The notes beneath the pieces are model-generated. The model saw only the letters and a program-made list of their open reading frames with translations. It made no database searches and was not told the DNA's origin. The position numbers and the translations under genes are program-made. Below, in pieces: positions 29,753-53,900 of a DNA stretch of 64,000 nt (position 1 is the stretch's first letter; each line of letters opens with the position of its first letter). The DNA is from Aureimonas altamirensis (GTDB lineage: Bacteria; Pseudomonadota; Alphaproteobacteria; Rhizobiales; Rhizobiaceae): assembly GCF_023702225.1 (NCBI RefSeq), contig NZ_JAMQCO010000006.1:1-64000 (forward strand), written 5' to 3'.

Positions 29753-30291
29753 CGAGGGGTATTAGGCAACGCCTCTCTCGGAGGCAACATCGTTTAACAA
29801 GGCGTTGCCAAAGCTCGCAAGCGGAAGGGCAGCTTCCGTGCGTCCACTTCACCAGAGCCAACTGCCTCGACGGGGTGGGAAGCCGACAGCTGGCTTTCCA
29901 AGGTGCGACGGCCACTTTGCGCCCCCAGCTTAGACGTTGAGGCAGAACTTGCTTTTACCCACAAGCGGACGCTCGCGCACGACACTACGGACGTCGGCAA
30001 TGCGCCCCGAAGCTGAACGGCAGCCTTCGCCTATCGTAAGCCCAGAAGCGGACTGTCCGCAAACGGCCCCAAAATCAGACAAGCGTATGCCTTCAATGGA
30101 GGTAGAATGCGGTTAGGCAGTTTTGATCCGGTAGCGATCTAATGCGCATGTGCCGTGGTCAGCCAGAAGTCCGTTAACCCGGTACTTGGCGCTGAAGCTG
30201 TTCGAGCAGTCCGTCACGCACCTAAGCTGAGGCTACCGTGAGAACATGACCAGATGGAGCGGCAGCTCAGAGAAATGGTGCGGTTTTGCCT
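29753..30291. other. Intergenic with dispersed-repeat copies
   Basis: No gene is supported. It carries a full copy of the dispersed repeat (30012-30070) and a weaker half-copy around 29820-29865. Confidence 0.6.
30012..30070 (+). repeat. Dispersed repeat copy A (about 58 bp)
   Basis: Starts GCTGAACGGCAGCCTTCGCC and ends GCGGACTGTCCGC then CGGCCCC. The same two blocks with the same spacing occur at 40363, 41730 and 49755, and imperfectly at 45406. The inner GCGGAC-TGTCCGC is a near-palindrome. Confidence 0.7.
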
Positions 30292-31191
30292 TTAGGCAGG
30301 AATAGCGGAGTAGTCCATCCTCGCGAGGTTCTCTGAGAGTGTCGGACCTTCGGGCACCCAACCGAGCCGTTCGCGGGTGATAGCACCCGAGCCAGGCATG
30401 TCGAAGGCGGCAAAGCCCGCCATCCACCCGAAATGCTTCTTCGCCTCGCTTTCCGTCAATGAAGTGACCGGCACGTCCAGCCCATCGCCGATCGCCTCCG
30501 CAATAGAGCGGAAGGAAAGGGCCTCCTCGGTCACTGCGTGCCAGCGGGCGCCGGGTTCATGTCGCTCCAGCGCAAGCACGTACAGGCGGGCGACGTCCTC
30601 GACGGCGGCGGCGCACCAACGGTTGCTACCGTCCCCGACATAAGCCGAGACGCCCGTTTGCCGAGAAAGCGCTATCAAGGGCGAGACCAACCCCTGCTTT
30701 ACTGGATCGTGGACCTGCGACAATCGAACGACCCCCACGGAGACGCCGCGCTCCCCGACCGTCAAACCCGCGAGCTCGCTAGCGATGCGGGGCATGAGGT
30801 GGTTGCGGTCAAGCACGTCCTCACGCGCGAACTCCCCGGCTCTAGGGCTCCCCATGCCGATGGCCGAGGTAATGAGTAGGGGTCGATCCGACCCAACGAG
30901 CACGTCGCCGATCGCCTCGATGACACGCCGATCCTTCTCGCAATTCTCGGCGTACCGCGAGAAATCGTGATCGAACGCCGTGTGGATCACGGCATCAGCA
31001 GTCTCGGCGCCTTTGGCGAGTCCCTCCGGATTGCTAAGGTTGCCGCTGTGCACAGCGGCGCCAACCTGCTCCAACCGACGGGCGCCAGCCTCGGATCGAG
31101 CGTTGCCGATCACCTGGTGGCCGGCGGCGAGCAGTTGAGGCAGTATACGGGAACCGATAAAGCCGGTTGCCCCGGTCAAGAAGACGCGCAT
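30292..31191 (-). CDS. NAD(P)-dependent epimerase/dehydratase-type SDR
   Basis: A 299-residue extended SDR. The N-terminal Rossmann motif is FLTGATGFIGSRI (residues 4-16). The usual active-site YxxxK is not in its classical form; the region LLITSAIGMGSPRAGEFA shows the Ser but no obvious Tyr-Lys pair, as in atypical NmrA-like SDRs. Soluble, cytoplasmic; substrate unknown. It is divergent from an XRE regulator across a 94-base gap, and such regulator/SDR pairs are usually regulator and target. Confidence 0.82.
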   Translation of the reverse strand: MRVFLTGATGFIGSRILPQLLAAGHQVIGNARSEAGARRLEQVGAAVHSGNLSNPEGLAKGAETADAVIHTAFDHDFSRYAENCEKDRRVIEAIGDVLVGSDRPLLITSAIGMGSPRAGEFAREDVLDRNHLMPRIASELAGLTVGERGVSVGVVRLSQVHDPVKQGLVSPLIALSRQTGVSAYVGDGSNRWCAAAVEDVARLYVLALERHEPGARWHAVTEEALSFRSIAEAIGDGLDVPVTSLTESEAKKHFGWMAGFAAFDMPGSGAITRERLGWVPEGPTLSENLARMDYSAIPA

Positions 31192-31285
31192 GAAAACCTC
31201 CTGTTTGAGGGGAGGAATGTCGCTGCGGACTTCAGCATGTTAAAGTAGTGATCTTATCGGGGTATAGAATTCAACAGGACCGGTC

Positions 31286-32122
31286 ATGCCTGAAAAGTCG
31301 ACAAACGAGTTCGGCATTTACCTGCGCGATCGGCGGACCCGCCTCGACCCAGCATCGTTTGGCTTTGTCGGCGGCAGACGTCGCACGCCTGGGCTTCGCC
31401 GCGAAGAGGTCGCCGCGCGTGCCAATATCAGTCCGACGTGGTATACTTGGCTAGAGCAGGGGCGCGGCGGCGCTCCGTCGGCCGACGTGCTCGATAGGAT
31501 CGCCAAGGGGCTGATGCTCACCGCATCCGAGCGAGAGCACATCTACATGCTAGGCTTGGGCCGCCCGCCGGAGGTAAGCTACCAGCCGGTCGATGGCGTC
31601 AGCCCGCGGCTGCAACGCGTGCTGGACGCGATGCGGTTCAGTCCCGCCATCATCAAGACAGCGATGTGGGACGTGGTCGGTTGGAACCGTGCTGCCGCCG
31701 CTTTGCTGACCGATTACTCCAAGCTGCCGAGGGAGGGACGCAACATCCTGCGTCTGATGTTCAGCAGTTCGCGCATCCGCGCCAAGCAGGAGGATTGGGA
31801 AAGCGTCGCTCGCTTCGTGGTAGGCGCGTTTCGGGCGGACGTGGCGCGAGCGGGGGCAAGCGGCAGTGCTGAAGCAACGGCGCTCATCGGAGATCTTCGC
31901 CGGACAAGCCCCGAGTTCGAGGCGCTGTGGCAGGACAACAACGTAGTCGCACACGGCGAGGGCATAAAGCGCATCCACCACCCGGAAGCAGGTTCGCTCG
32001 AGCTGGAGTTCTCGTCCTTCGCGGTCGAGGGGCGGCCCGAACTTGGCATGATCGTATACAACCCCGCTAGCCCTGCGGACGCTGAACGCTTAAGGGCGCT
32101 CATCGGCACCAAGACGGCGTGA
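31286..32122 (+). CDS. XRE-family regulator with MmyB-like ligand-binding domain
   Basis: A 278-residue regulator. An N-terminal helix-turn-helix (GLRREEVAARANISPTWYTW, about residues 34-55) is followed by a C-terminal MmyB-like domain (from about 100) with WDVVGWNRAAAALL and a His/aromatic-rich end (IHHPEAGSLELEFSSF). This domain binds small hydrophobic ligands in related proteins. It is transcribed away from the SDR gene, whose expression it probably controls. Confidence 0.88.
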   Translation: MPEKSTNEFGIYLRDRRTRLDPASFGFVGGRRRTPGLRREEVAARANISPTWYTWLEQGRGGAPSADVLDRIAKGLMLTASEREHIYMLGLGRPPEVSYQPVDGVSPRLQRVLDAMRFSPAIIKTAMWDVVGWNRAAAALLTDYSKLPREGRNILRLMFSSSRIRAKQEDWESVARFVVGAFRADVARAGASGSAEATALIGDLRRTSPEFEALWQDNNVVAHGEGIKRIHHPEAGSLELEFSSFAVEGRPELGMIVYNPASPADAERLRALIGTKTA

Positions 32123-32278
32123 TCCAGCATAACTGCATTGCGGCGGTGCCGATGTCCGCTTGCCGGCCAACCTCATGCAGCTCGCAGTGGTCTGGAAGGG
32201 GTCGGAGGCTGAATGGCAGTTACCGTAGACAGCCTTTACTCGGCATACGCTGCGGTGTGGGCTTTCAGCCTTGAGTTG

Positions 32279-32992
32279 TCATTCGGTGTTGTAGCGGATC
32301 CTTTTGGCGGCGCACTCAATGTGGCTCCGCATGGCCGCGCTGGCTGCGCGCGATGAACCGTCGCGGATCGCCGCAAGGATGGCGCGATGCTGTTCCACCA
32401 TCTCCTCGCTGACCCCGGGCGTGAACACCTCTCGGCGCGCTCGGATCCACTGCTGTTCCGAACGCACGGAGTTGACGAGGCGGAAGACCGCAAGCAGCAT
32501 GCGGTTGCGGACGCTTTCGGCAATCTTCGTGTGGAAGAGACTGTCCCAACGCTCGTAGGACTCGGCGTCGACAGCCGTATGCGCCCGCTCTACGACGACC
32601 TCCATCTCGGCGATCTCTCGCGGTGTCGCGCGGACGGCTGCGAGCCCAGCAAGCATCGGTTCTATAAGCTGCCGCGTCTCGATCAGATCGCTGGGACTGG
32701 TGATCTGGCTTAATGATAAATGGTTGGTCGAGCGGTTCGGCATTTCCCGCACGAAGGTGCCATGCCCCTGTTTGCGGTAGACCCGACCCTCTCCCTCCAA
32801 CCGCGTGAGAACCTGCCGGACGACGCGGCGCCCAACGCCCAGACGTACCGCTATCTCGCGCTCGGGTAACAGCTTGCCGTCTTCGACGAAGTGCTCGTCG
32901 CTGGTGGAAAGCGCGTCGCGCAACGTCGATTCGACCTGTTTCAGCTGGTTGGACAAAGCGGACACGTGGCGGACCCATATGATGCGTTGCAA
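32279..32992 (-). CDS. GntR-family regulator, FadR (FCD) subfamily
   Basis: A 237-residue regulator. Residues 15-80 are a GntR winged helix (LLPEREIAVRLGVGRRVVRQ, then YRKQGHGTFVRE). The C-terminal FCD domain has the metal-binding pattern: Asp/His in WDSLFHTKIAE, His in EEMVEQHRAIL and His in AMRSHIECAAKR. It is divergent from the ABC-importer/GGT operon across about 200 bases and is its likely repressor; the effector could be an acid or gamma-glutamyl compound. The gap includes GCATATGC-type dyads (about 33069-33078). Confidence 0.88.
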   Translation of the reverse strand: MQRIIWVRHVSALSNQLKQVESTLRDALSTSDEHFVEDGKLLPEREIAVRLGVGRRVVRQVLTRLEGEGRVYRKQGHGTFVREMPNRSTNHLSLSQITSPSDLIETRQLIEPMLAGLAAVRATPREIAEMEVVVERAHTAVDAESYERWDSLFHTKIAESVRNRMLLAVFRLVNSVRSEQQWIRARREVFTPGVSEEMVEQHRAILAAIRDGSSRAASAAMRSHIECAAKRIRYNTE

Positions 32993-33198
32993 AAGAAAGC
33001 GGCGAACCTATCCGAACCAATCCATTAGACAGGCAATTTGCAGGTTTGGTGGGCAGCTGCCACGTTAGCATATGCAATAGCCACATCTGCCGGCAATATG
33101 CGGTTGACGGAATGGGTCATGCGCGTTCTGCTATAGGCAAGGATACACGAAGGCGAATGAACCAATTTGATATGGTTCGTACTTTTGGGGATGCTCCG

Positions 33199-34257
33199 AT
33201 GCAAAGAAGAACGTTTTTGACCATGGCCGGCTCGGTCGCCGCCTACGGTGCATTCGGTCGAGTGCCAGCCTTTGCTCAGGCAAAGCCGGAAACGCTGTCG
33301 ATGATGACGTGGGGTGGTCTATGGGGCGACGGGATGGCTCAGAACATCGACGCCCCCTTCGCGGAAGAGACCGGTATCCGCATCGTTCAGGATCGTGGCT
33401 CCAGCCCGGTCGAGCGCATCACCAAGTTGCGCATCAGCCTCGACAACCAGATCTACGATCTTGTTCAGCTGGCGGACGGCGTCGTTCCGTTGGCGGAGTC
33501 CCAAGGCGTCCTGGAGGATCTGGACCCGGGCTCCGAGAACCTGCCGTTCCTTGCTCAGGTTCCCGAGCGGTTCCGGCGAAAGGGTTGGGTTGCCCAAATC
33601 TACTCAGCTCTCGGCATCGCCTACAACCCGGATCTTGTGGAAACGCCGCCCAAAAGCTTCGCCGATCTCTGGAATCCTGAATATGCAGGCGCGATCGTCC
33701 TACCGGAGATCACCCATTCGATCGGCCCCTACATCATTCCCATCGGAGCGCTTGCAGCCGGCGCGGACCTGAAGGACGAGGAAGCCGGATTCGCGAAACT
33801 GAGCGAAATGGTGGAACTGGATCCGATCTGGGCCAAGGATACCGACTCCATCATGAGCGCGCTCGTCAACGAGGAAGCGGCGATCGGCCTGCTTTACAAA
33901 TCGCAGACCAACACCGTCATCGAGCAGGGCGGCAACGTCGCGTGGGTTTTTCCCGAAGAGGGAGCGATCTCGTATCTCTCCGGCACGGGTATCGCCCGCA
34001 ACACACGCAACAAGCAGTGGGCGGAAGCTTACGTGAACTCCACCCTCGATCCGCAAAAGCAGCTATGGGTCGCCGATGTCTTCAACTACAGCGGCACCAA
34101 CCCCGCGATGATCGATATGCTTCCGGTTGAGTTGCAGGAGCGTATCCAATTTACGCCCGAGCAGTCCGAGCGGATCATCGATCTCGACCAGGAGTTCATG
34201 TCGGCCCAGCGCGGCGCCTGGGTCGATCGGTGGAACCGCGTGATAGCCGGCGGTTAG
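33199..34257 (+). CDS. ABC transporter solute-binding protein, PotD/spermidine-putrescine class
   Basis: A 352-residue periplasmic binding protein. The N-terminus MQRRTFLTMAGSVAAYGAFG is a Tat-type signal, cleaved probably after AFAQA near residue 28. The mature domain belongs to the polyamine-type SBP family 8: LSMMTWGGLWGDG at the start, GIAYNPDLVETPPKSFADLW in the middle, and SGTGIARNTRNKQWAEAYVN near the end. The Asp/Glu set that binds polyamines cannot be confirmed by eye. The ATG at 33199 is chosen; an in-frame ATG at 33157 would add 14 residues before the Tat motif. First gene of a six-gene operon. Confidence 0.87.
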   Translation: MQRRTFLTMAGSVAAYGAFGRVPAFAQAKPETLSMMTWGGLWGDGMAQNIDAPFAEETGIRIVQDRGSSPVERITKLRISLDNQIYDLVQLADGVVPLAESQGVLEDLDPGSENLPFLAQVPERFRRKGWVAQIYSALGIAYNPDLVETPPKSFADLWNPEYAGAIVLPEITHSIGPYIIPIGALAAGADLKDEEAGFAKLSEMVELDPIWAKDTDSIMSALVNEEAAIGLLYKSQTNTVIEQGGNVAWVFPEEGAISYLSGTGIARNTRNKQWAEAYVNSTLDPQKQLWVADVFNYSGTNPAMIDMLPVELQERIQFTPEQSERIIDLDQEFMSAQRGAWVDRWNRVIAGG

Positions 34258-34277
34258 GCCGCCGGCGCGATATCGAC

Positions 34278-35702
34278 ATGACCATCGAAGCATACCGCAT
34301 CCCCGAAGCCGGCCCGTTCGATGCCCGGCCGTTGGCCTTCGCCAATCGCGCGCGCTACCGCGGACTGGGTGCTACGGCACCGGCAGGGGTCCTCGCCGTA
34401 TCGGCGGACGCCTTGCCGGCGGCTCGCCGGTACGGACTTGTCTTGGAGGCGGCTGCCGGCGGCGCTAGTGCGGCAACGGCGCCTGACTTTCGCGTCGCCA
34501 TCTATGCGGGAGTCGCCATCGGGTATCCTTACTGGGGATACTACGCCCACGCTTTACTCAGCATCGGGCGGACCTTCGAAGCGATCGATGCGGACGACAT
34601 TCTGGACGGCGCACTGGACCATATCGACCTTTTGGTCCTGCCGGGCGGGTTCGCCACGTGGGGACTTGATAGGGCCGAGGCCAAAACGGGCGTCGATGAT
34701 CGCGTTTCCACCTTCATACGGGCGGGTGGTCGGGTACTCGGCTCCTGCGGCGGGGCGTTCTATCTCTCTTCCGGGCGACCGGGCTGGCTCGGCGCGTTGG
34801 ATGCCACGCCGCGCTTCACGCAGGAGTATCTCTCGACCGGTGCAGGGCTGGTCAGTATCTCCGAATTCGATGAGGGACTTGCAGCCGGACTTCCGGAGGC
34901 GGTCGAGTTGCCGTATTTCCATGGGCCGATCTACACATGTGCCACACGTACGGCGCAGACCGGGGCGCGCTTTCGGGACTTTGTCGCCGCCACTGGTGCC
35001 TTCATAGAGAACCCCCTGTCGCAAGCCTTCTTCGACCGCGCGATGCACGGCGCGCCTGCGGTGCTTCACGCGCGGATGGGAAGGGGCGCTGTCCTCGCTT
35101 TCTCTCCGCACCCTGAAATGGGCGAGTTCGTGCGCAAGGGCATGATCCTCGACACTTACGTTCGCCGCTTCCTGCCGATCAGAGGCGAGCAGGTGATGGA
35201 CGAGACCGTACGGTTTTTGGGTGGCGACGATAGCGCCGGTTTCCGGTTGATCGAGAACGCCGTCGAGTTGCTGCAGACGATGTCCCCGATTTCGGGTGAG
35301 AGCACTAGGCCTCGGCGACCGGAGCCCGAACAGGGAGTGCTCGCGGCGCTTATCGAAGCGATGCAAGGCCATGTCACGATGCTTCTCGACCGGGTCGAGA
35401 CCATTGGCTCAAATCAGGATCCAGTGTTTCGCTCGCTTCTTGCAAAGGAAGTGGAACGTCGCCGTACGGAACTGGCTGACCTGCTGCCTCGGCTCCACAC
35501 ATGTTTCGTCGCGCGGCGAGCTGCGCCCGACATCGCGCGTGCGTTGGTGGCATCCCTGAAGGCGGCCGGCCGCCACGGCGAACGCGCCGTGGCCGACGGA
35601 CCGGCCGAAAGTCTGGTCCTGGCAGAGCTGCCTCTCCGGATCTGTTCCGTCGCGGTACGGCTCGAAACGATCGACCGCGCTTTCATCGGAGTGAACGAAT
35701 GA
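34278..35702 (+). CDS. GATase-like protein with BPL_N domain, in polyamine-type importer operon
   Basis: A 474-residue protein. Residues about 70-300 have the class I glutamine-amidotransferase-like fold: YAGVAIGYPYWGYY, the strand LLVLPGGFATWGLD, the nucleophile elbow VLGSCGGAFYLS (Cys157), and a C-terminal FSPHPEMGEF that supplies a His. This arrangement is that of the BPL_N family (biotin-protein-ligase N-terminal-like), whose chemistry is largely unknown. The last 130 residues are helical and Arg/Glu-rich, with no known domain. It starts 20 bases after the binding protein and its stop overlaps the ATPase start (ATGA). A role in amide or peptide-bond cleavage of the imported substrate is inferred. 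Confidence 0.72.
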   Translation: MTIEAYRIPEAGPFDARPLAFANRARYRGLGATAPAGVLAVSADALPAARRYGLVLEAAAGGASAATAPDFRVAIYAGVAIGYPYWGYYAHALLSIGRTFEAIDADDILDGALDHIDLLVLPGGFATWGLDRAEAKTGVDDRVSTFIRAGGRVLGSCGGAFYLSSGRPGWLGALDATPRFTQEYLSTGAGLVSISEFDEGLAAGLPEAVELPYFHGPIYTCATRTAQTGARFRDFVAATGAFIENPLSQAFFDRAMHGAPAVLHARMGRGAVLAFSPHPEMGEFVRKGMILDTYVRRFLPIRGEQVMDETVRFLGGDDSAGFRLIENAVELLQTMSPISGESTRPRRPEPEQGVLAALIEAMQGHVTMLLDRVETIGSNQDPVFRSLLAKEVERRRTELADLLPRLHTCFVARRAAPDIARALVASLKAAGRHGERAVADGPAESLVLAELPLRICSVAVRLETIDRAFIGVNE

Positions 35703-36790
35703 GCGCCACCCCACAACGCCAGGCGAAAGACGTTCGATTTGCGGGGGTTCGCAAGAATTTCGGCCCTGCGGTCGCCTTGCATACGTTCGATCTCGATATT
35801 CCAAGAGGCACGTTGTTCTCTCTTCTCGGCCCCAGCGGCTGCGGAAAGACGACGACGCTTCGCCTGATAGCCGGCTTCGAGCAGCCCAGCGCGGGAACCG
35901 TGACGATCGGAGACCGGAACGTGACAGGCGTGCCGGCCCACAAGCGCAATTTCGGCATGGTCTTCCAGAATTTCGCACTGTTTCCCCATCTGTCCGTTTC
36001 CGAGAATGTCGCGTTCGGGCTGCAGATGCGCCGACTCCCGAAGGCGGAGATCGGCGAGCGGGTCGCCAAGGCGTTGAGCCTCGTTGCGTTGGATCGCTTC
36101 GCCGAGCGTTACCCGAGGCAGCTCTCGGGCGGCCAGCAACAACGCGTGGCGCTGGCGCGCGCCGTCGTATTCGAGCCCGACGTGCTCCTGCTCGATGAGC
36201 CGCTGAGCGCGCTCGACAAGATGCTGCGCGACCAGATGCAGATCGAGATCCGTCAGCTTCAGCAGAGGCTTGGCATGACGACCGTCTTCGTCACCCACGA
36301 CCAGGAAGAGGCCCTGACCATGTCCGATCAAGTAGCGGTCATGAGCGAGGGGCGCGTACAGCAGGTGGGTCCGCCCCGCGCCATCTACGAGAACCCGAGC
36401 AATGAGTTCGTGGCCCGGTTTCTTGGCTCGAGCAACATCGTGACGGCGCGCGTCGTCGGCCGCGACGCCGATAGCGTCGTGGCCGATGTTGCGGGATCCC
36501 GCGTCCTGCTCGCGCCGTCGCCGGAAACCACCGATGGCACGGTGCGGTTTGCGGTGCGGCCCGAGCGGATCATGGTCGCCAGGGAGGGTGCGGCGGGAGC
36601 CGGCGCCGTGTTGCGGCAATGCGTGTTCAAGGGCGCACAGACGCATCTCCTGTTCGACCTCGCGGGAGAGCCGGTGTCGGCGACGGTGCCGAACACCGTG
36701 GCCGACGCCCTCGACCTGCAGCCCGGCGAGACGGCCTATCTGACCTGGGAGCAGGGTGCGGCAGTCGTTCTGGCGGGACCCGCAACGTGA
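35699..36790 (+). CDS. ABC transporter ATP-binding protein, PotA class
   Basis: A 363-residue ATPase. Walker A is LLGPSGCGKTTTLRLIAGFE (residues 42-61), Q-loop FQNFALFPHLSV, signature LSGGQQQRVALARAV, Walker B LLLDEPLSALD and H-loop FVTHDQEEALTMSD. A C-terminal TOBE domain (about residues 280-360) senses substrate or interacts with the permeases. It overlaps both neighbours: ATGA with the GATase-like gene and GTGA with the first permease. Confidence 0.94.
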   Translation: MSATPQRQAKDVRFAGVRKNFGPAVALHTFDLDIPRGTLFSLLGPSGCGKTTTLRLIAGFEQPSAGTVTIGDRNVTGVPAHKRNFGMVFQNFALFPHLSVSENVAFGLQMRRLPKAEIGERVAKALSLVALDRFAERYPRQLSGGQQQRVALARAVVFEPDVLLLDEPLSALDKMLRDQMQIEIRQLQQRLGMTTVFVTHDQEEALTMSDQVAVMSEGRVQQVGPPRAIYENPSNEFVARFLGSSNIVTARVVGRDADSVVADVAGSRVLLAPSPETTDGTVRFAVRPERIMVAREGAAGAGAVLRQCVFKGAQTHLLFDLAGEPVSATVPNTVADALDLQPGETAYLTWEQGAAVVLAGPAT

Positions 36791-37644
36791 AGGGCCGCTA
36801 TCTCGTCACGGTCGCGGTCGCGGCCCCGCCCGTAGCGCTGCTGGCCGCCTTCTTCGTCGTGCCGCTCGCCTACCTTCTCTATGTCAGCTTCATGAGCAAT
36901 TCCGATACGGCGCTCTTCGATGCAAGACCCACGATCGAGAATTACACGGTCGTTCTGACGGACCCGTTCTACTGGATGATCATCCAGCGAACACTGTTGG
37001 CCACCGGCACCGTCCTGGTTCTCTGCTTCGTCATCGGCTATCCCGTCGCCCTGTACGCGGCGCGCCTCTCGCCCCGTGGCAGGATGCTGATGCTGCTGGC
37101 CATGATGGTGCCGCTGATGGTCAGCAACGTGGTGCGGGCCTATGGCTGGGTTGCCATTCTCGGCCGTCGCGGGGTCGTCAGCAGTACGCTGGAGGGTCTC
37201 GGGGCTATCGCTCGTCCGGCCCAGTATCTCTACTCCTTCGAGGCGGTGACGCTTGGGCTCCTGACCATTCTCCTGCCGTTCATGATCGTGTCCTTGACCA
37301 ACTCGATCGCCGCCATCGACAAGACCTACTCCGAAGCCGCGCAATCGCTCGGGGCCGGGCCTTGGCGGTCATTCTGGCGCGTGACCCTGCCCCTGAGCAG
37401 TCCAGGCATAGCCTCCGGGTTAATGCTGGTGACGTTTCTCGCCCTCAGCGCCTATGTCAGCATCGCGCTCTTGGGGGGGCCGCGCTACAAGCTGCTCGTC
37501 AGTTTCGTGTTCGAGAGTGTGTCGACATTCCGTTGGCCCCGCGCGGCTGCGCTTTCCTTCATCCTGCTTGCCATAGCACTCGTCATCGCTGTTGCGATAC
37601 AGATGATCGTGCGTCCGCAGCGCGTCCAGGGAAGGGGCGCCTGA
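36787..37644 (+). CDS. ABC transporter permease, PotB class
   Basis: A 285-residue inner-membrane permease with six helices. The family features LLAAFFVVPLAYLLYVSF at the N-terminus and the coupling loop DKTYSEAAQSLGAGPWRSFW (about residues 178-197) are visible. GTG start overlapping the ATPase stop. Encodes one half of the channel. Confidence 0.92.
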   Translation: MKGRYLVTVAVAAPPVALLAAFFVVPLAYLLYVSFMSNSDTALFDARPTIENYTVVLTDPFYWMIIQRTLLATGTVLVLCFVIGYPVALYAARLSPRGRMLMLLAMMVPLMVSNVVRAYGWVAILGRRGVVSSTLEGLGAIARPAQYLYSFEAVTLGLLTILLPFMIVSLTNSIAAIDKTYSEAAQSLGAGPWRSFWRVTLPLSSPGIASGLMLVTFLALSAYVSIALLGGPRYKLLVSFVFESVSTFRWPRAAALSFILLAIALVIAVAIQMIVRPQRVQGRGA

Positions 37645-37646
37645 CC

Positions 37647-38429
37647 ATGGGGACATTCCTGCTCCGGCTCATTACGGGCATCGCATTGGCACTCATCGTG
37701 GGTCCGATCCTCGTCGTGCTCGTCGTCGCATTCAGCTCGGGCGCCAGCCTGTCCTTCCCGCCGCCGGGGGTGTCGCTGCGCTGGTTCGTCGCCTTCCTGC
37801 AGAACAACGAAATGCGCAACGCCTTCGTGCTGAGCATCGGTCTGGCGCTCGTATCGGCAAGCGCATCGACGGTGCTGGGCCTTCTAGCGGCCGTCCACGT
37901 GTCGCGAACGCGGGGAACCGCGTCGAATATCGTGCAGATCTTGACGATGGCGCCGCTCGTGTTTCCGGCACTTATCCTGGGCGTGGCGCTTCTTCTCATG
38001 TTCAAGTCGCTTGGCATCGGGATCCTGCCTGGGCTGTTCATCGCCCATGTCGTCGTCTGTCTGCCCTACGCCTTCCGCAGTGTCCTGACGTCGCTGCAGA
38101 GCTTCGACCTGACGCTGGAGGAAGCCGGGCGCAGCCTCGGCGCGAGCCCGATGCGCACCTTCATGCTGATCACCCTGCGCATCGTTTGGCCGGGTGTGCT
38201 GAGCGGTTGGCTGTTCGCCTTCGTGGTTTCCTTCGGCGAACTCAACACCGCCTTGTTCCTGACCGGGCCCGGCGTGACGACCTTGCCCATCGAGATCTTC
38301 AGCTACCTGCAGTTCCAGGGCAATCAGCTGGTGGTCGCCGCGGCGTCGGCGCTTCAGATTCTCGTCATCATCCTTGTCCTTCTGGTCGCCGAGCGCATCG
38401 TCGGCGCCCGTCAAATCGTTCAACGGTAA
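37647..38429 (+). CDS. ABC transporter permease, PotC class
   Basis: A 260-residue partner permease; FSSGASLSFPPPGVSLRWF is typical of PotC proteins, and the coupling loop is TLEEAGRSLGASPMRTFM. Two bases separate it from the PotB-type gene. Six helices, no signal peptide. Confidence 0.92.
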   Translation: MGTFLLRLITGIALALIVGPILVVLVVAFSSGASLSFPPPGVSLRWFVAFLQNNEMRNAFVLSIGLALVSASASTVLGLLAAVHVSRTRGTASNIVQILTMAPLVFPALILGVALLLMFKSLGIGILPGLFIAHVVVCLPYAFRSVLTSLQSFDLTLEEAGRSLGASPMRTFMLITLRIVWPGVLSGWLFAFVVSFGELNTALFLTGPGVTTLPIEIFSYLQFQGNQLVVAAASALQILVIILVLLVAERIVGARQIVQR

Positions 38430-38433
38430 CATC

Positions 38434-40221
38434 ATGGCTCCCTTCACCACACGTCCCGAACTGTCCGGAACCTTCGGTGCCGTCAGCACGACCCATTGGC
38501 TGGGCACCGGGGTCGGCATGTCCGTCCTGGAACGTGGCGGCAACGCCTTCGACGCCGCCGCCGCATGCGGTTTCGTCCTCCAGATCGTCGAGCCGCATCT
38601 GAACGGTCCCGGCGGTGAAGTGCCGATTATTCTGCAGGCAGCCGGACAAGACGCTCCCATCGTCATCTGCGGGCAAGGGGTTGCTCCGGGCCTGGCGACC
38701 GTCGATCGGTTCCGCGAACTGGGTCTCGCCATGGTGCCCGGTACGGGCCTGCTACCCGGCGTCGTACCGGGCGCCTTCGACGCATGGATGCTCATGCTGC
38801 GCGACTACGGTACATGGCACCTGGAAGACGTGCTTTCCTACGCGATCGGGTATGCGGAACGCGGCTTTCCGCTCATCGAGCGTGCGGTTTCGTCCATCGT
38901 GCCGGTGGCCGATCTCTTCCGGCAAAGCTGGACCAGTTCGGCGGAGGTCTGGTTGCCCGCAAACCGCATCCCGCGACCGGGCGCGCTGATGACTACTCCG
39001 GGGATCGCGCAAACCTATCGCCGTATCATAGACGAAGCCAAAGCGTCGTCCGCCGACCGCATCGCGCAGATAGAGGCCGCGCGGAACGCGTTCTACCGAG
39101 GGTTCGTCGCGGAGGCGATCGACCGTTTCTACCGGACCGCTTCGCTGCCCGACACGTCGGGCCGTGACAACCCCGGCCTGCTACGAGGCGACGACCTTGC
39201 CGCATGGTCGGCAACGGTCGAGGAAACCACCTCGTGCACCTATGGCGGCTTGGAGGTGCACAAGACGGGCCCGTGGGGTCAAGGCCCGGTGATGCTTCAG
39301 CAGCTCAAGATGCTCGAGTGCTTCGATCTGCCGGCGCTGGACCCGCTCGGCGCGGAGTTCGTGCACTTGCAGGTCGAATGCGCCAAACTCGCCTTTGCCG
39401 ATCGCGAAGCCTTTTACGGCGACCCGCAAGCATCCGACATTCCGATGGAAACGCTTCTGTCCACAGCCTATGCCAATGAGCGCGTCAAGCTGGTGGGTGC
39501 GCAAGCGAGCATGGAACTGCGCGCAAGCCATCTGCCTGACGCCGCAAGACGGCTTGCAGCCATCGCCGCCCGTGGTGGGAGCGAGGTTCCAATGGGACCC
39601 GGCGGAGGCGAGGTGACCTTTGCACCCGTACCGGAAATCGAAGGCGATACGGTTCATCTCGACATCATGGATCGCTTAGGAAACGCCGTTTCTGCCACAC
39701 CCAGCGGCGGATGGTTGCAGAGTTCGCCGGTGGTGCCGGGTCTCGGTTTCCCATTGTCGACGCGCGCCCAGATGTTCTGGCTCGATGACGATCTGCCCTC
39801 GACCCTGCGACCGGGAACGCGCCCGCGGACAACTTTAACGCCGACATTGATTACCCGGGAAGGCCGGCCTTGCCTAGCCATCGGTACGCCGGGGGGCGAC
39901 CAGCAGGACCAGTGGCCGCTGACCGTGCTGCTTCGGCACCTGCATCATGGCTATGCACTCCAACGCGCCATCGATGCGCCGATGTTCCACAGCCGACATT
40001 GGCCGGGCTCCTTCTACCCGCGCGAGTACGAGCTGGGCAGCCTGCTTATCGAAGACAGGTTCGCCCCCCATGTGCAGGCTGACCTTCAGGCGCGGGGCCA
40101 CCTGCTGAACGTGCAAGGCGCTTGGTCTTTGGGCCGCGTCTGCGCTGTTTCGCGCGACGGCGATCTGCTGGGCGCCGCAGCAACGCCGCGCCACATGCAG
40201 GGCTATGCGTTGGCGCGTTGA
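38434..40221 (+). CDS. Gamma-glutamyltransferase/hydrolase-family protein, cytosolic
   Basis: A 595-residue member of the Ntn-hydrolase GGT family. The N-terminal subunit begins with the substrate-side motif SVLERGGNAFDAAAACGFVL and has EPHLNGPGGEVPI. The autocleavage/nucleophile site is EGDTVHLDIMD, with Thr406 as the predicted catalytic residue. A later GTPGGDQQDQWP matches the conserved GTPGG region. Unlike secreted GGT it has no signal peptide, so cleavage takes place inside the cell after import. Starts four bases after the PotC-type gene. Substrate unknown: glutathione conjugates, gamma-glutamyl-polyamines and gamma-glutamyl amino acids are all possible; cephalosporin-acylase-like activity also occurs in this family. 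Confidence 0.88.
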   Translation: MAPFTTRPELSGTFGAVSTTHWLGTGVGMSVLERGGNAFDAAAACGFVLQIVEPHLNGPGGEVPIILQAAGQDAPIVICGQGVAPGLATVDRFRELGLAMVPGTGLLPGVVPGAFDAWMLMLRDYGTWHLEDVLSYAIGYAERGFPLIERAVSSIVPVADLFRQSWTSSAEVWLPANRIPRPGALMTTPGIAQTYRRIIDEAKASSADRIAQIEAARNAFYRGFVAEAIDRFYRTASLPDTSGRDNPGLLRGDDLAAWSATVEETTSCTYGGLEVHKTGPWGQGPVMLQQLKMLECFDLPALDPLGAEFVHLQVECAKLAFADREAFYGDPQASDIPMETLLSTAYANERVKLVGAQASMELRASHLPDAARRLAAIAARGGSEVPMGPGGGEVTFAPVPEIEGDTVHLDIMDRLGNAVSATPSGGWLQSSPVVPGLGFPLSTRAQMFWLDDDLPSTLRPGTRPRTTLTPTLITREGRPCLAIGTPGGDQQDQWPLTVLLRHLHHGYALQRAIDAPMFHSRHWPGSFYPREYELGSLLIEDRFAPHVQADLQARGHLLNVQGAWSLGRVCAVSRDGDLLGAAATPRHMQGYALAR

Positions 40222-40609
40222 TACGAACCGTCGGCCCGCAGTCTTCTCGACCATCTCGTATCGGACGATAAGACTTCGCCGATGACGTATGCTTGAGGCT
40301 GCGGAGGTTTTCGCTTTCGGGGTGATCTTACGGTAAGCCCGATGTCCTGAATGGGGTTGGTCGCTGAACGGCGGCTTTCCCCGATCCTTCATTGAAATCG
40401 GTCAGTCCGCTGTCGGCCCCGAACCGTACGGGCCATAAACAGCTTCGATGCTCCGCGAATATCGGGAGCGTCTTCGAAGAGGTGGTAGGGAGAAGGGCAA
40501 CCTTTTGCAGTCCCCTTTACATGCGCGGAAGCTGGAGGATGATGTGGGGATGAGCATAGGCCCGGCGCTTACAACTCGGTGATTCCAGGCTAAAGGCTTC
40601 CAGGGCGCG
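40222..40609. other. Intergenic with dispersed-repeat copy B
   Basis: No gene supported. Contains a repeat copy (40363-40420) followed by a stretch shared with 45455-45488. Confidence 0.55.
40363..40446 (+). repeat. Dispersed repeat copy B with 3' extension
   Basis: GCTGAACGGCGGCTTTCCCC then GGTCAGTCCGCTGTCGGCCCC, aligned with copy A. The following bases, together with the end of the unit (40413-40446), are shared with 45455-45488: 34 positions with about four differences, including GGGCCATAAA. Confidence 0.7.
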
Positions 40610-41647
40610 ATGCGATTTCCTAGCCACTTCTTCCGCCGCCGCAAGGCTGAGCCGGCCCCAGTGACGCCGTGGCCAGACGGTCCTGCACCCGCCGAAGTTA
40701 AGCCAGATCCCGACGGCATGAACCCGATCCTGCGCCTTGCGGACGAGTGGCGCCTACCTCGGCACGAGACGCGCATGGAGGTCGAGGCACGCTGCGGCAT
40801 TCTACCCGATCCGATCTATGGGTGGCCAGCTCTCGTCCTTTTTGATGCCAAATCCCTGCCAGGCGCAATGGCGCCCTGGACGGCGAGCGCCTTCGAGCGC
40901 ATTCCGCCTCAGTTTCCCATCACGCGCTTCAGTGTCCTCGCGTGGTTCGAGGACGACGCACACGAGAACTTGCGACGCACAGCCGATTATCTCGAGACAT
41001 CGCTCGGGCCGGCGCCGGTCGGTCAGCAATGGAACACTGTCGTTGCCAAGTGGCGCTCGGGGCTGGCCGAGGTCTCGCTCACGGTATGGCCGCCAGCCTG
41101 GCAGTCGCACGATGTGCAGAACCCCTCCGAGGATCGCGAGCCCCGCATAGGGACCGCCTGCCATGTGACGTTGATGACTGGCTTCCGTTTGGGCCTGAGC
41201 GGAACGGAGAGGGAATGGGTTGAAGGCTTCCAACCGATCGCGATCGACGGAAATGTAGGGACTGTAAGCATGGCACGGGCCGGACGCCACGCGCCAAACG
41301 AAACGGAACTCGAATACGTGCGTGACCCAGAAGACCTGGTAGAAGACCGGCTCAGGACGCTCGGCGTGTCACGGGACGGCGAGGCGCTCATCGTGGTGTC
41401 GGATCAGCTTTACGTCATACCTTGCACTGACATCCTGCGCTTGGAGGTGCTCCGCATGACGCCGGCTAAGGGCGGAGGCGGTTCGTCGCTCCATGCTCAT
41501 TGCCGGACGAGGGCACCGGGCGCGGACGACCATTCCGTGTTCGTCGCGCAGCACAGCGATCCCAACGGCATGACGGCGCTCGGGCAAGAGCTTGGCAAGC
41601 GGCTCGGCTGCTCAGTCGAGATCAGCCCCTATTTTCCGGATTGCTGA
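40610..41647 (+). CDS. Uncharacterised protein, 345 residues
   Basis: A soluble-looking protein with no transmembrane helix or signal peptide. It begins with a basic patch (RFPSHFFRRRK). Much of it is mixed alpha/beta with many Trp and Arg (RLADEWRLPRHETRMEVE, VWPPAWQSHD). The composition and codon use are those of a real gene. I do not recognise the family. It stands isolated between two dispersed-repeat copies, which suggests it sits in an exchangeable segment. Confidence 0.6.
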   Translation: MRFPSHFFRRRKAEPAPVTPWPDGPAPAEVKPDPDGMNPILRLADEWRLPRHETRMEVEARCGILPDPIYGWPALVLFDAKSLPGAMAPWTASAFERIPPQFPITRFSVLAWFEDDAHENLRRTADYLETSLGPAPVGQQWNTVVAKWRSGLAEVSLTVWPPAWQSHDVQNPSEDREPRIGTACHVTLMTGFRLGLSGTEREWVEGFQPIAIDGNVGTVSMARAGRHAPNETELEYVRDPEDLVEDRLRTLGVSRDGEALIVVSDQLYVIPCTDILRLEVLRMTPAKGGGGSSLHAHCRTRAPGADDHSVFVAQHSDPNGMTALGQELGKRLGCSVEISPYFPDC

Positions 41648-45201: not shown

Positions 45202-45602
45202 GCCGCGTCCGTCCATGAAATGGATATGGGGGAACGCGATACTTCGACCGTGGCCTCGTGGGGAGATCGCAGTCCCCATTCGTCTACATCACCTGCCTGC
45301 ATAACCCGTGTCAACGGCCGCTTCGAGCGTTTCTGCAGACCCCTCGTAAACGTCTCGATTGGGGTCGTGAGCGGACCAGGCAAACTTTGCCCGATGATGC
45401 GAGCCCAGACGTCAGCTTACCGCCAAGCGTTCACCAGAACCGGACGGTTGGGAATCGGCCCCGAACCAGACGGGCCATAAATGGCTTCCATGGGGTGGAA
45501 AGGAGATCTTCCGCTTCCGGCAAATTGAGACATGAAAGCTGCCACTCGTGGCGAGGAATCGTCCAAAGACAAGGACGCCTTCCGTTGCGAGTGCTGCCGG
45601 GT
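45202..45602. other. Intergenic with a degenerate dispersed-repeat copy
   Basis: No gene supported. Holds repeat copy E (45406-45488). Confidence 0.5.
45406..45488 (+). repeat. Dispersed repeat copy E, degenerate
   Basis: Aligns weakly with the 5' block (ACGTCAGCTTACCGCC) and better with the 3' block (CAGAACCGGACGG, then TCGGCCCC). The end (45455-45488) matches 40413-40446 at about 30 of 34 positions. Confidence 0.55.
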
Positions 45603-50999: not shown

Positions 51000-53900
51000 A
51001 TGGGTGTCGCGATGTCAGTTATCGAATCAACCTCGTTGTACCAGAGCGATCTACCGATCGAGCAGAAACTCGAACGTGCTCGAACCGAACTGCTCGACCT
51101 CTCAGCACGGAATCGTCTATTGAACGTGCCGCGAATGTCTAAAGCGGCCCGAACGATCGACATCGTCGACGAGCGTTCCGCGGATGTTTACCGCCTGCTC
51201 GCGAAGGAAGCGAAGGCGTTCACGTTCGCCGCCGGGCGTCCGGACCGCCCGGGCGTGGAGGGTACGGAGGAGGAAGAGGGCTTGCCCGTTGTCGAACTCG
51301 CGCAGCCGGACGAGGCGCACGACGAGGTCGACGAGCAAGGCCGCACCAAGCGGCATGTCGACACAAAGCTTCAGACGCGCATGACCCCGAAAGGACTCCA
51401 GAGGCGGCTTCTCGACCTGTACCATGACGCCAGGACGTTGGAGGAGGAGCAGGGCGTTAACGTCCTCTTCCTCGCGCTCGGCATGCTCCGTTGGGTGGAT
51501 CCGAACAACAAGGAGAACCTTCGGCACGCCCCGCTCGTCCTCGTACCCGTGCGGCTCGAGCGCGGCACTGCGGGCGAGCGCTTCCGCCTGCGGGTGCGGC
51601 CGGAGGACCAGACGTCGAACCTGTCGCTCGAGGCCTACCTCGACCGGGTCCACAAACTTCGCCTGCCGACGTTCGAGGGCGGCGACGAGTTCGATCCGGA
51701 TGCTTACTTCCGCGAGGTTGCCGAAGCCGTCTCGACGAAGGACGACTGGTCGGTCCTCCCCGACGACATCGTTCTTGGGTTCTTCTCGTTTTCTAAATTC
51801 CTGATGTACCGGGACCTCGATCCAGAGAACTGGCCCGCGGACGGGCGCATCACCGACCAGTCGACGATCCGGTCGCTGCTGTCCGACGGCTTCGACGCAG
51901 GTGAGCCCCTCCTATCGGAGGACGAGCGGATCGACCGCCACATCGACCCAGCGGACATGCTGCACATCGTCGACAGCGACGGGTCGCAGACGCTCGCCGT
52001 CCACGATGTCCGCCGTGGCCGCGACCTCGTCATTCAGGGGCCGCCCGGGACGGGCAAGTCCCAGACGATCGCCAACGTGATCGCCTCGGCCGTGGCCGAC
52101 GGGAAGACCGTCCTGTTCGTCGCGGAGAAGATGGCCGCGCTTGACGTCGTGAAGCGCCGGCTGGACAACGCCGGGGTCGGCGACGCCTGCCTCGAGCTTC
52201 ACAGCAACAAGGCGAACAAGCGGGGTCTCTTGGAGGAACTGCGCCGGACTTGGGAGCTCGGCTCCCCGCGCGGCGAGTTCCCGTCGAGCCTGGCGGGCAA
52301 GCTCCGCGAGGCGCGCGACGTCCTGAACCTCCATGCCGAGCGCATGCACGTGCCGCACGTCGCGTCCGGCCTCACGCCCTACCAAGTGGTCGGGGCGTTG
52401 ACGAAGCTCAGGCAGGAAGGACAGCGGCCGGTCGACCTGAACCTCGACGGCGCGACGCTCTGGTCGCCCGATGACCTGTCTGCCCGGCGAAGACTCCTCG
52501 TGGAGTTGACGCAGCGCGTCGACGAGATCGGCTTGCCCGTCCGTCACCCTTGGCACGGTGTTGGCCTCGACCTTGTCCTGCCGACGACCCTCGAACGGCT
52601 GCTGCCGCGCATCGAGGCGCTCCGGTCGGCCGTCGCCGAACTGGAGACCGAATACGCGGAACTAGCTGGGACGCTCGAGCTGGAGCCGAAGCCCGATACG
52701 TTCGCGGGGGCAGCCGCGCTGCGCGATCGCGCGGACATCTTGGCCCGTGCGCCCGACCTATGCCCTGAAGCGCTCGGGGCCGCGGCCTGGGGCGACCGGC
52801 GCGGGGCGATCGCCGATCTCGTGAGGGCGGGCGCTGACTTCCGAAGGCAGGGCGTGTCCTTGGGCGATGCCGTCCATCCCGCGGCGCTAGGCACGTCCAT
52901 CGAAGGACTGGAAGCCCAGCTCGCCTGGTTGCCGCGAGACTTTCCGGCGGAGGCGTTCGGCCGGGCCGTCGAGCTCGCCGATCTGCTTCCGCGCTTGCGT
53001 GCGGAGGCCAATCGCCTCGCGTCCGAACTGGGTGTCCCAGGCCCGGTCGACACGCTCGCTGCCATCTCCCGCCTCATCACGACGGGCGAGCGCGTGGCGG
53101 CCGCACCCGACGCCAGTCCCGAGGCGTTCGCCGCCACCGTCTGGGACCAAGGCGTCGAGCAGGCGGGCGATCTGGCGGAGGCCATGGAGACGCTGGAGCA
53201 TTCGCGCGCGGCGATGAGCGATCGGATTCTCGACGTCGCCTGGACGACCGAGGTCGCGGCCGCGCGACAGGCGCTGGCGACGAACACCGGGTTCCTGAAG
53301 TCGCTGAACGGGGACTACCGCAAGGCAAAGGCGCTGGTCCGCTCCATACTGCGCAATCCCGACATGGCGACGCAGGAGATCATCGAGCTCCTCGACACGC
53401 TGATGAAGGGGCAGGCTGCGGCCAAGCGAGTGCGCGACGACGACGCCTTCGGCCGCTCGGCGTTCGGCGCCGACTGGCGGGGCGAGCGCTCGGCGTCCGC
53501 GCCTCTCCTCGCGCTCGTCGCCTGGATGCGCACGCTGCGCGGTCTTGGCGCCGAGCCACGGCTCATTGCCGGCCGCCTCGCCGAACGGCAGGTCGTCGGC
53601 GAGCACGCTGCACTGGTCCTTCGTCATGTCGACGCCGCCAAGCCTTTGCTCGAAGCGGTGTGGAGGGACCTCGGCTCATCGGCCGGCCCTGCGTTCGACA
53701 ACGCCGTGTCCGTGGACCGGGCGTCCCTTGACCTCGTTGAGGCCCGGGCACGCAACCTCGCCTGGGCCGATGGCCTCTGCCGAGAGATCATGCGCTCCGT
53801 CCCCGAAGCCCTCGCCGACCGCCTCGGTCTCGTCGCGCGCGTCGCGGCGTTGCAGGCCGCAGCCCGGTCGCTCGACGAGCGCGCCGACCTCGGGGGCGAG

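Follow-up and report, generated by a model that had tools for sequence, protein, structure and literature searches.

What compound is served by an operon that combines the genes of an ATP-binding cassette (ABC) importer with genes for two putative hydrolases? The question is raised by positions 32279-40221 of a 64,000-nt window (the whole stretch of DNA analysed) of Aureimonas altamirensis, assembly GCF_023702225.1, contig NZ_JAMQCO010000006.1, where a divergent gene for a regulator of the FCD/GntR type is followed by six genes on the plus strand, the last of them encoding a protein of the gamma-glutamyltransferase (GGT) family. The database label "gamma-glutamyltransferase" steers annotators and modellers to glutathione; the active site of this enzyme resembles that of LmbA2991 instead. 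As a solute-binding protein (SBP), two enzymes and a regulator for which there is a candidate operator come together in this compact operon, the class of its substrate is directly testable. In this work we have analyzed the locus computationally and favour, with moderate confidence, the view that it is an accessory catabolic operon whose products import a small compound of the amide type and hydrolyse it in the cytosol by means of an LmbA-type N-terminal nucleophile (Ntn) hydrolase and an amidase of the class I glutamine amidotransferase (GATase) type.

Organization and conservation of the operon

All seven reading frames are open, and the gene calls and coordinates of an earlier note on this DNA hold for each of them. 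The regulator, a FadR/FCD-type GntR protein of 237 amino acids (aa) with a TTG start, is encoded on the minus strand (32279-32992; Pfam FCD 88.1 bits, 8.2e-25; GntR 8e-12). The plus strand carries in order a PotD-family SBP with a Tat-like (twin-arginine translocation) signal (352 aa, 33199-34257; SBP_bac_8 73.6 bits, 3e-20), a BPL_N/class I GATase-like protein (474 aa, 34278-35702), a PotA-subfamily ABC ATPase (363 aa, 35699-36790; ABC_tran 126.1 bits), a PotB-like permease starting with GTG (285 aa, 36787-37644; BPD_transp_1 48.9 bits, 8.4e-13), a PotC-like permease (260 aa, 37647-38429; BPD_transp_1 62.0 bits, 8.1e-17) and the GGT-family enzyme (595 aa, 38434-40221). From the SBP gene to the GGT gene the spacings are 20, -4 (ATGA), -4 (GTGA), 2 and 4 bases. 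The tight coupling described before was thus confirmed, not so the number of "five coupled junctions" linking the last five genes: five genes have four junctions, and the fifth is the 20-base gap behind the SBP gene.

A translated search with the BPL_N protein (two plasmid records) and a scan of genome contigs (nine loci) gave 11 other records. The six genes from SBP to GGT are collinear in nine of these (L009-L017), hosted by Neorhizobium, Rhizobium, Aurantimonas and Roseovarius, with L009 and L013 coming from the same species, Neorhizobium petrolearium. As for the remaining two, the contig of L018 ends within the second permease gene, and in L019 a different GGT relative (36% identical) starts about 1.9 kb past the second permease, the end of the locus having a GGT with 61% identity over 196 residues. 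In seven of the nine collinear loci the identity of the divergent regulator is 50-58%; in L016 it is 27%, and L017 has no match. A gene order that recurs in this way is no product of chance, and the gene set does exist and is conserved. Other genomes do have SBP, BPL_N protein and GGT together, and the co-occurrence of all six genes, on which the earlier note had made its proposal depend, was found.

The set is well conserved and at the same time rare. At class level six of 385 genomes gave matches at E<=1e-10: four, the own genome among them, are full-length, one breaks off where the contig ends (G187) and one is weak; at phylum level the only match at E<=1e-15 among 398 genomes was the own genome. 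Among 61 relatives eight genomes matched at E<=0.001, six weakly and partially and two in full, the own genome and G005, which over 19,901 bases does not differ from the window and so is not independent. The position of the GGT gene varies in some genomes: in G430 a GGT relative lies upstream in divergent orientation, and in G187 upstream of the SBP gene on the same strand. Among the open-access papers listed in searches for the gene set or for a BPL-N domain there was nothing on this set; the author of the earlier note likewise knew of no described pathway with it.

The GGT-family enzyme

The closest characterised relative of the enzyme is LmbA2991 (PDB 6j3a), with 51% identity over 541 residues. 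At 14 positions that we picked around the active site of E. coli GGT, the window enzyme equals LmbA2991 at 13 and E. coli GGT at four. The overall fold is that of LmbA2991. With E. coli GGT the enzyme shares the Ntn-hydrolase fold, the catalytic Thr (T406), the oxyanion glycines (G487, G488) and the equivalent of His393, whereas R114, N411, Q430, D433, S462 and S463 of E. coli GGT are replaced by Q81, G426, R444, M447, T466 and T467, respectively. These six residues are glutamate contacts of the E. coli enzyme, S462 and S463 being described in PMC4568574. Judged by alignment, the usual glutamate pocket has been lost, and the enzyme seems to be a relative with another specialisation. Its codons for D405-T406 (39646-39651, plus strand) align with D420-T421 of LmbA2991 and with T391 of E. 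coli GGT; the Asp-Thr motif is thus present, and self-cleavage would be expected between D405 and T406, with the Thr as predicted nucleophile. The N-terminal signal-like extension of E. coli GGT is missing, as noted before, but is missing alike from LmbA2991 and close relatives, so that its absence characterises the subfamily and not this operon.

In a tree of 27 rows the GGTs of the ten modules group in a single clade (100/99), and the two nearest rows outside it (L030, L031) are GGTs paired with FCD genes and with other transporters. LmbA2991, LmbA and Ant6 are actinobacterial proteins, LmbA and Ant6 being biosynthetic, in contrast to the window enzyme, which belongs to an importer operon with a GATase-like partner. 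Another GGT-family hydrolase, the oxamate amidohydrolase HpxW (PDB 5hft), has 27% identity over 278 aligned residues of one chain.

These data bear directly on the dedicated gamma-glutamyl route put forward in the earlier note, in which the GGT-family enzyme would remove a gamma-glutamyl group in the cytosol. The enzyme scores 342 bits with the Pfam model G_glu_transpept and keeps the catalytic residues listed above, and within the GGT family the pocket is known to differ from clade to clade (PMC4568574). All six contacts are replaced, however, the score with the NCBIfam GGT equivalog TIGR00066 (219.5 bits) is below the cut-off of 357.85, and LmbA and Ant6 have no gamma-glutamyl activity according to the authors of the LmbA work (PMC6085292). 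We regard a gamma-glutamyl substrate as improbable.

The BPL_N/GATase-like protein

The second putative hydrolase passes the gathering scores of both GATase_3 (33.3 against 27) and BPL_N (29.9 against 24.2). The amidotransferase-like Cys157 pointed out before is indeed present, and the complete triad Cys157-His278-Glu280 is found without change in all 15 sequences compared, that of the window among them. A search of PDB sequences gave nothing useful (best E 0.75). No ligase catalytic domain was found among the Pfam matches up to E 0.1, and a biotin-protein ligase was rejected.

The protein might also assist the ATPase, in a glutaminase-like or regulatory role, and leave the imported compound uncleaved. 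The genes for SBP, BPL_N protein and ATPase follow in this order also where no GGT gene is adjacent, the BPL_N gene overlaps the ATPase gene, and the protein has a long helical C-terminal part. Pure scaffolds, however, seldom keep complete catalytic triads, and the invariance of this triad makes such a role rather unlikely in our view; a second acyl-bond-splitting enzyme remains our preferred assignment.

A palindrome shared with a few other operons

Alignment of eight upstream regions led to a palindrome, GAACCA-N8-TGGTTC, newly found here, and to a pair of half-sites further upstream. In the window the palindrome (GAACCAATTTGATATGGTTC) matches perfectly at 33159-33178, 20 bases ahead of the SBP start, with 0.13 sites expected at <=1 mismatch, and the tandem half-sites (GAACCNNTNNGAACCNNT) lie at 33004-33021 (plus strand). 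At <=1 mismatch the palindrome is present in seven of the ten module loci; the half-sites are perfect in seven of ten as well (window, L009, L010, L011, L013, L014 and L015). A scan of 32 loci gave 12 sites, where shuffling of two-letter blocks would predict 0.55; two of the sites are stray one-mismatch copies (L083, 13589; L093, 8157). The motif TTGTNNNACAA, also considered as an operator, was rejected with six matches against 7.8 expected.

The own assembly of 4.33 Mb has exactly two perfect sites and eight at one mismatch, and a reversed control pattern gave one. Besides the site of this operon there is one at C12:68378, directly ahead of an FCD-like gene, recognised as such by its 37% identity to the window regulator and its reading frame; it opens a second FCD-ABC-GGT operon (C12:68378-74369, L083) with another LmbA-type GGT, 55% identical to that of the window. 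A stricter form of the palindrome, which does not match the window site itself, was sought at <=1 mismatch across 21 genomes of the genus. Just two sites came up, the one on C12 and another in G001, where an FCD-ABC-GGT operon starts; G005, which carries the identical module, had none. Ten genomes or records with the module or a GGT were searched whole, and five have perfect sites: three at the module only, a Paraburkholderia plasmid two, between divergent FCD and GGT genes, and G802 (Rhizobium) three. The first G802 site belongs to the module and the second lies about 600 bases upstream of a group of genes for an Amidase, an oligopeptide-type ABC importer and an amidohydrolase. That group, downstream of the perfect palindrome (G802:C28, L110, 6511-13351), comprises an Amidase, a permease, an oligopeptide-type SBP and an amidohydrolase; in L016 the module has a similar amidohydrolase and SBP as neighbours.

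The palindrome is a likely operator, and the FCD protein would bind it. It is not general, however: the palindrome of L011 is one base longer, none is present in L016 and L017, where the regulators are different, and the third G802 site, in a region that looks like chemotaxis genes, is probably due to chance. Moreover, when 16 GGT loci outside the module were scanned, the palindrome was upstream in L031 and L083 only, the other 14 being without it though many have an FCD gene. The palindrome thus ties the operon to a few import-and-cleave operons and not to GGT operons at large.

The second G802 site also bears on the chemistry of the Ntn-hydrolase. According to PMC5519988, LmbA2991 hydrolyses a C-C bond, releasing oxalate from a pyrroline side chain through a proposed oxalyl-Thr intermediate. 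With 13 of 14 positions in common, the window enzyme could likewise cleave a C-C bond beside a carboxylate, the import being an alpha-keto or dicarbonyl acid with no amide. LmbA2991, however, lies outside the lincomycin cluster, replaces LmbA only partly and has about 37% of the activity of Ant6, so this may be a side activity, and one of the sites sharing the palindrome stands upstream of the Amidase/amidohydrolase group; we hold C-C cleavage to be quite unlikely. Still more speculative is the idea that the palindrome is the signature of a small, hitherto unrecognised regulon, present in some Rhizobiales and in Paraburkholderia, each member of which would pair an interchangeable importer with a hydrolase acting on amides or oxalyl compounds in the cytosol. 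In the window operon the LmbA-type GGT would then hydrolyse oxalyl- or alpha-ketoacyl-type bonds (as in oxamate-like compounds or plant N-oxalyl amino acids) and the GATase-like enzyme a second amide. If true, it would give cytosolic "gamma-glutamyltransferase family proteins" of the LmbA type a native catabolic role; it is weakened by the 14 of 16 GGT loci that have no palindrome.

The solute-binding protein and the importer

Among PDB chains those of the PotD family come closest to the SBP, and the importer as a whole is of the same transporter family and gene set as the spermidine/putrescine importer PotABCD, to which the window operon adds two hydrolase genes. The Tat signal is below the cut-off of its model (TAT_signal 13.7 against 22.7). 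The pocket was compared in an alignment of 12 SBPs, window included (those of L026-L028 and L082 not among them), with the ligand contacts of PotD, whose residue letters agree with the E. coli PotD sequence. The acidic contacts D168, E171 and D257 are replaced by I/V, S and S in all 12 (I/S/S in the window), T35, Y37, S83 and Y85 are changed, and W229 and W255 have become Tyr; W34 and Y293 are kept, as is Q327 in nine of the 12, and an invariant Lys234 adjoins the W229 position. Comparison of this pocket with a polyamine binder had been proposed as a check, and with the acids gone a polyamine ligand appears unlikely; "polyamine-type" is right for the family but not supported as a statement on the ligand. 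A plain polyamine or gamma-glutamyl-polyamine route, for which the ATPase score above the PotA cut-off (TIGR01187, 384.0 against 355.6) and the PotD-family neighbours would speak, is very improbable given this pocket and an NCBIfam PotD score of 60.6 against a cut-off of 582.

Proposed function of the operon

In the catabolic operon that we favour, the FCD regulator would bind the palindrome ahead of the SBP gene and hold the operon down as long as no effector is present. The exported SBP, its pocket apparently remodelled away from polyamines, would hand a small compound to the PotA/B/C-like importer. In the cytosol the LmbA2991-type Ntn-hydrolase, after self-cleavage, would split acyl bonds, probably amides, of the compound, and the GATase-like enzyme with its Cys-His-Glu triad would presumably do the same. 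The earlier proposal of an uptake and cytosolic cleavage operon with a divergent FCD regulator is supported to this extent, its gamma-glutamyl part is not.

Some further points tell against this scheme. As LmbA2991 has no known native role, likeness to it does not name the substrate, and the pocket positions of GGT and SBP rest on sequence alignment. The predicted model of the BPL_N protein is weak (mean predicted local distance difference test, pLDDT, 68.9) and has no Foldseek match in the PDB at E<=0.001. In G182 and G286, of one genus, SBP-BPL_N-ABC genes have no adjacent GGT gene, GGT relatives lying elsewhere in both genomes, so the two enzymes are separable. Consensus scans gave neither a sigma-70-like promoter nor a terminator upstream of the operon; past its end they gave a single weak promoter-like site, at 40516, and again no terminator.

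The proposed unit would work like other regulator-transporter-GGT units of related bacteria, with the type of transporter swapped and the hydrolase constant. Nine of 13 annotated GGT loci outside the module (12 from 81 plasmid records and the second GGT of L009; the unannotated L090 left out) adjoin a two-permease ABC importer. Alphaproteobacterial FCD-oligopeptide-type ABC-GGT operons (C12, L033, L037, L091-L094) have an FCD-type regulator, an importer and an LmbA-type GGT in common with the window operon; they differ by the type of importer and by having no BPL_N gene among annotated neighbours, lists of which are incomplete. The palindrome is shared by the C12 operon, is absent from L033, L037, L091, L092 and L094, and in L093 exists only as the stray copy inside the GGT gene. 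The operon belongs with the known regulator-importer-hydrolase operons, among which BPL_N is an unusual partner, and its annotation can be corrected from GGT to LmbA-type.

Surroundings and other observations

The G014 genome, from another species of the genus, has no BPL_N match. Its contig C8 (L081, 5470-7412) matches the window at 30260-32203 with 96.7% identity and diverges right before the regulator gene; the operon accordingly appears to lie in an accessory segment with its left edge at about 32204. Across 32200-40700 there is no Rfam match at the gathering threshold, and a known RNA element was discarded.

Of PDB entries, 2nlz (named cephalosporin acylase) comes closest to the third GGT-family gene of the own genome. 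In L085 (G286:C113, 2-14134) an LmbA-type GGT lies among genes for two AstE/AspA deacylases, a DAO oxidoreductase, a class II aldolase, a DUF1611 protein and two enolase-family proteins, a setting that suggests use of N-acyl or D-amino acids. A short dispersed repeat is found downstream of the operon (40347-40450 and 45455-45506 of the window), with copies elsewhere in the own genome and in G014 (sites G000:C3:106188 and L080). Further on, at 51000-56609, the list of open reading frames has an open frame of 1869 aa.

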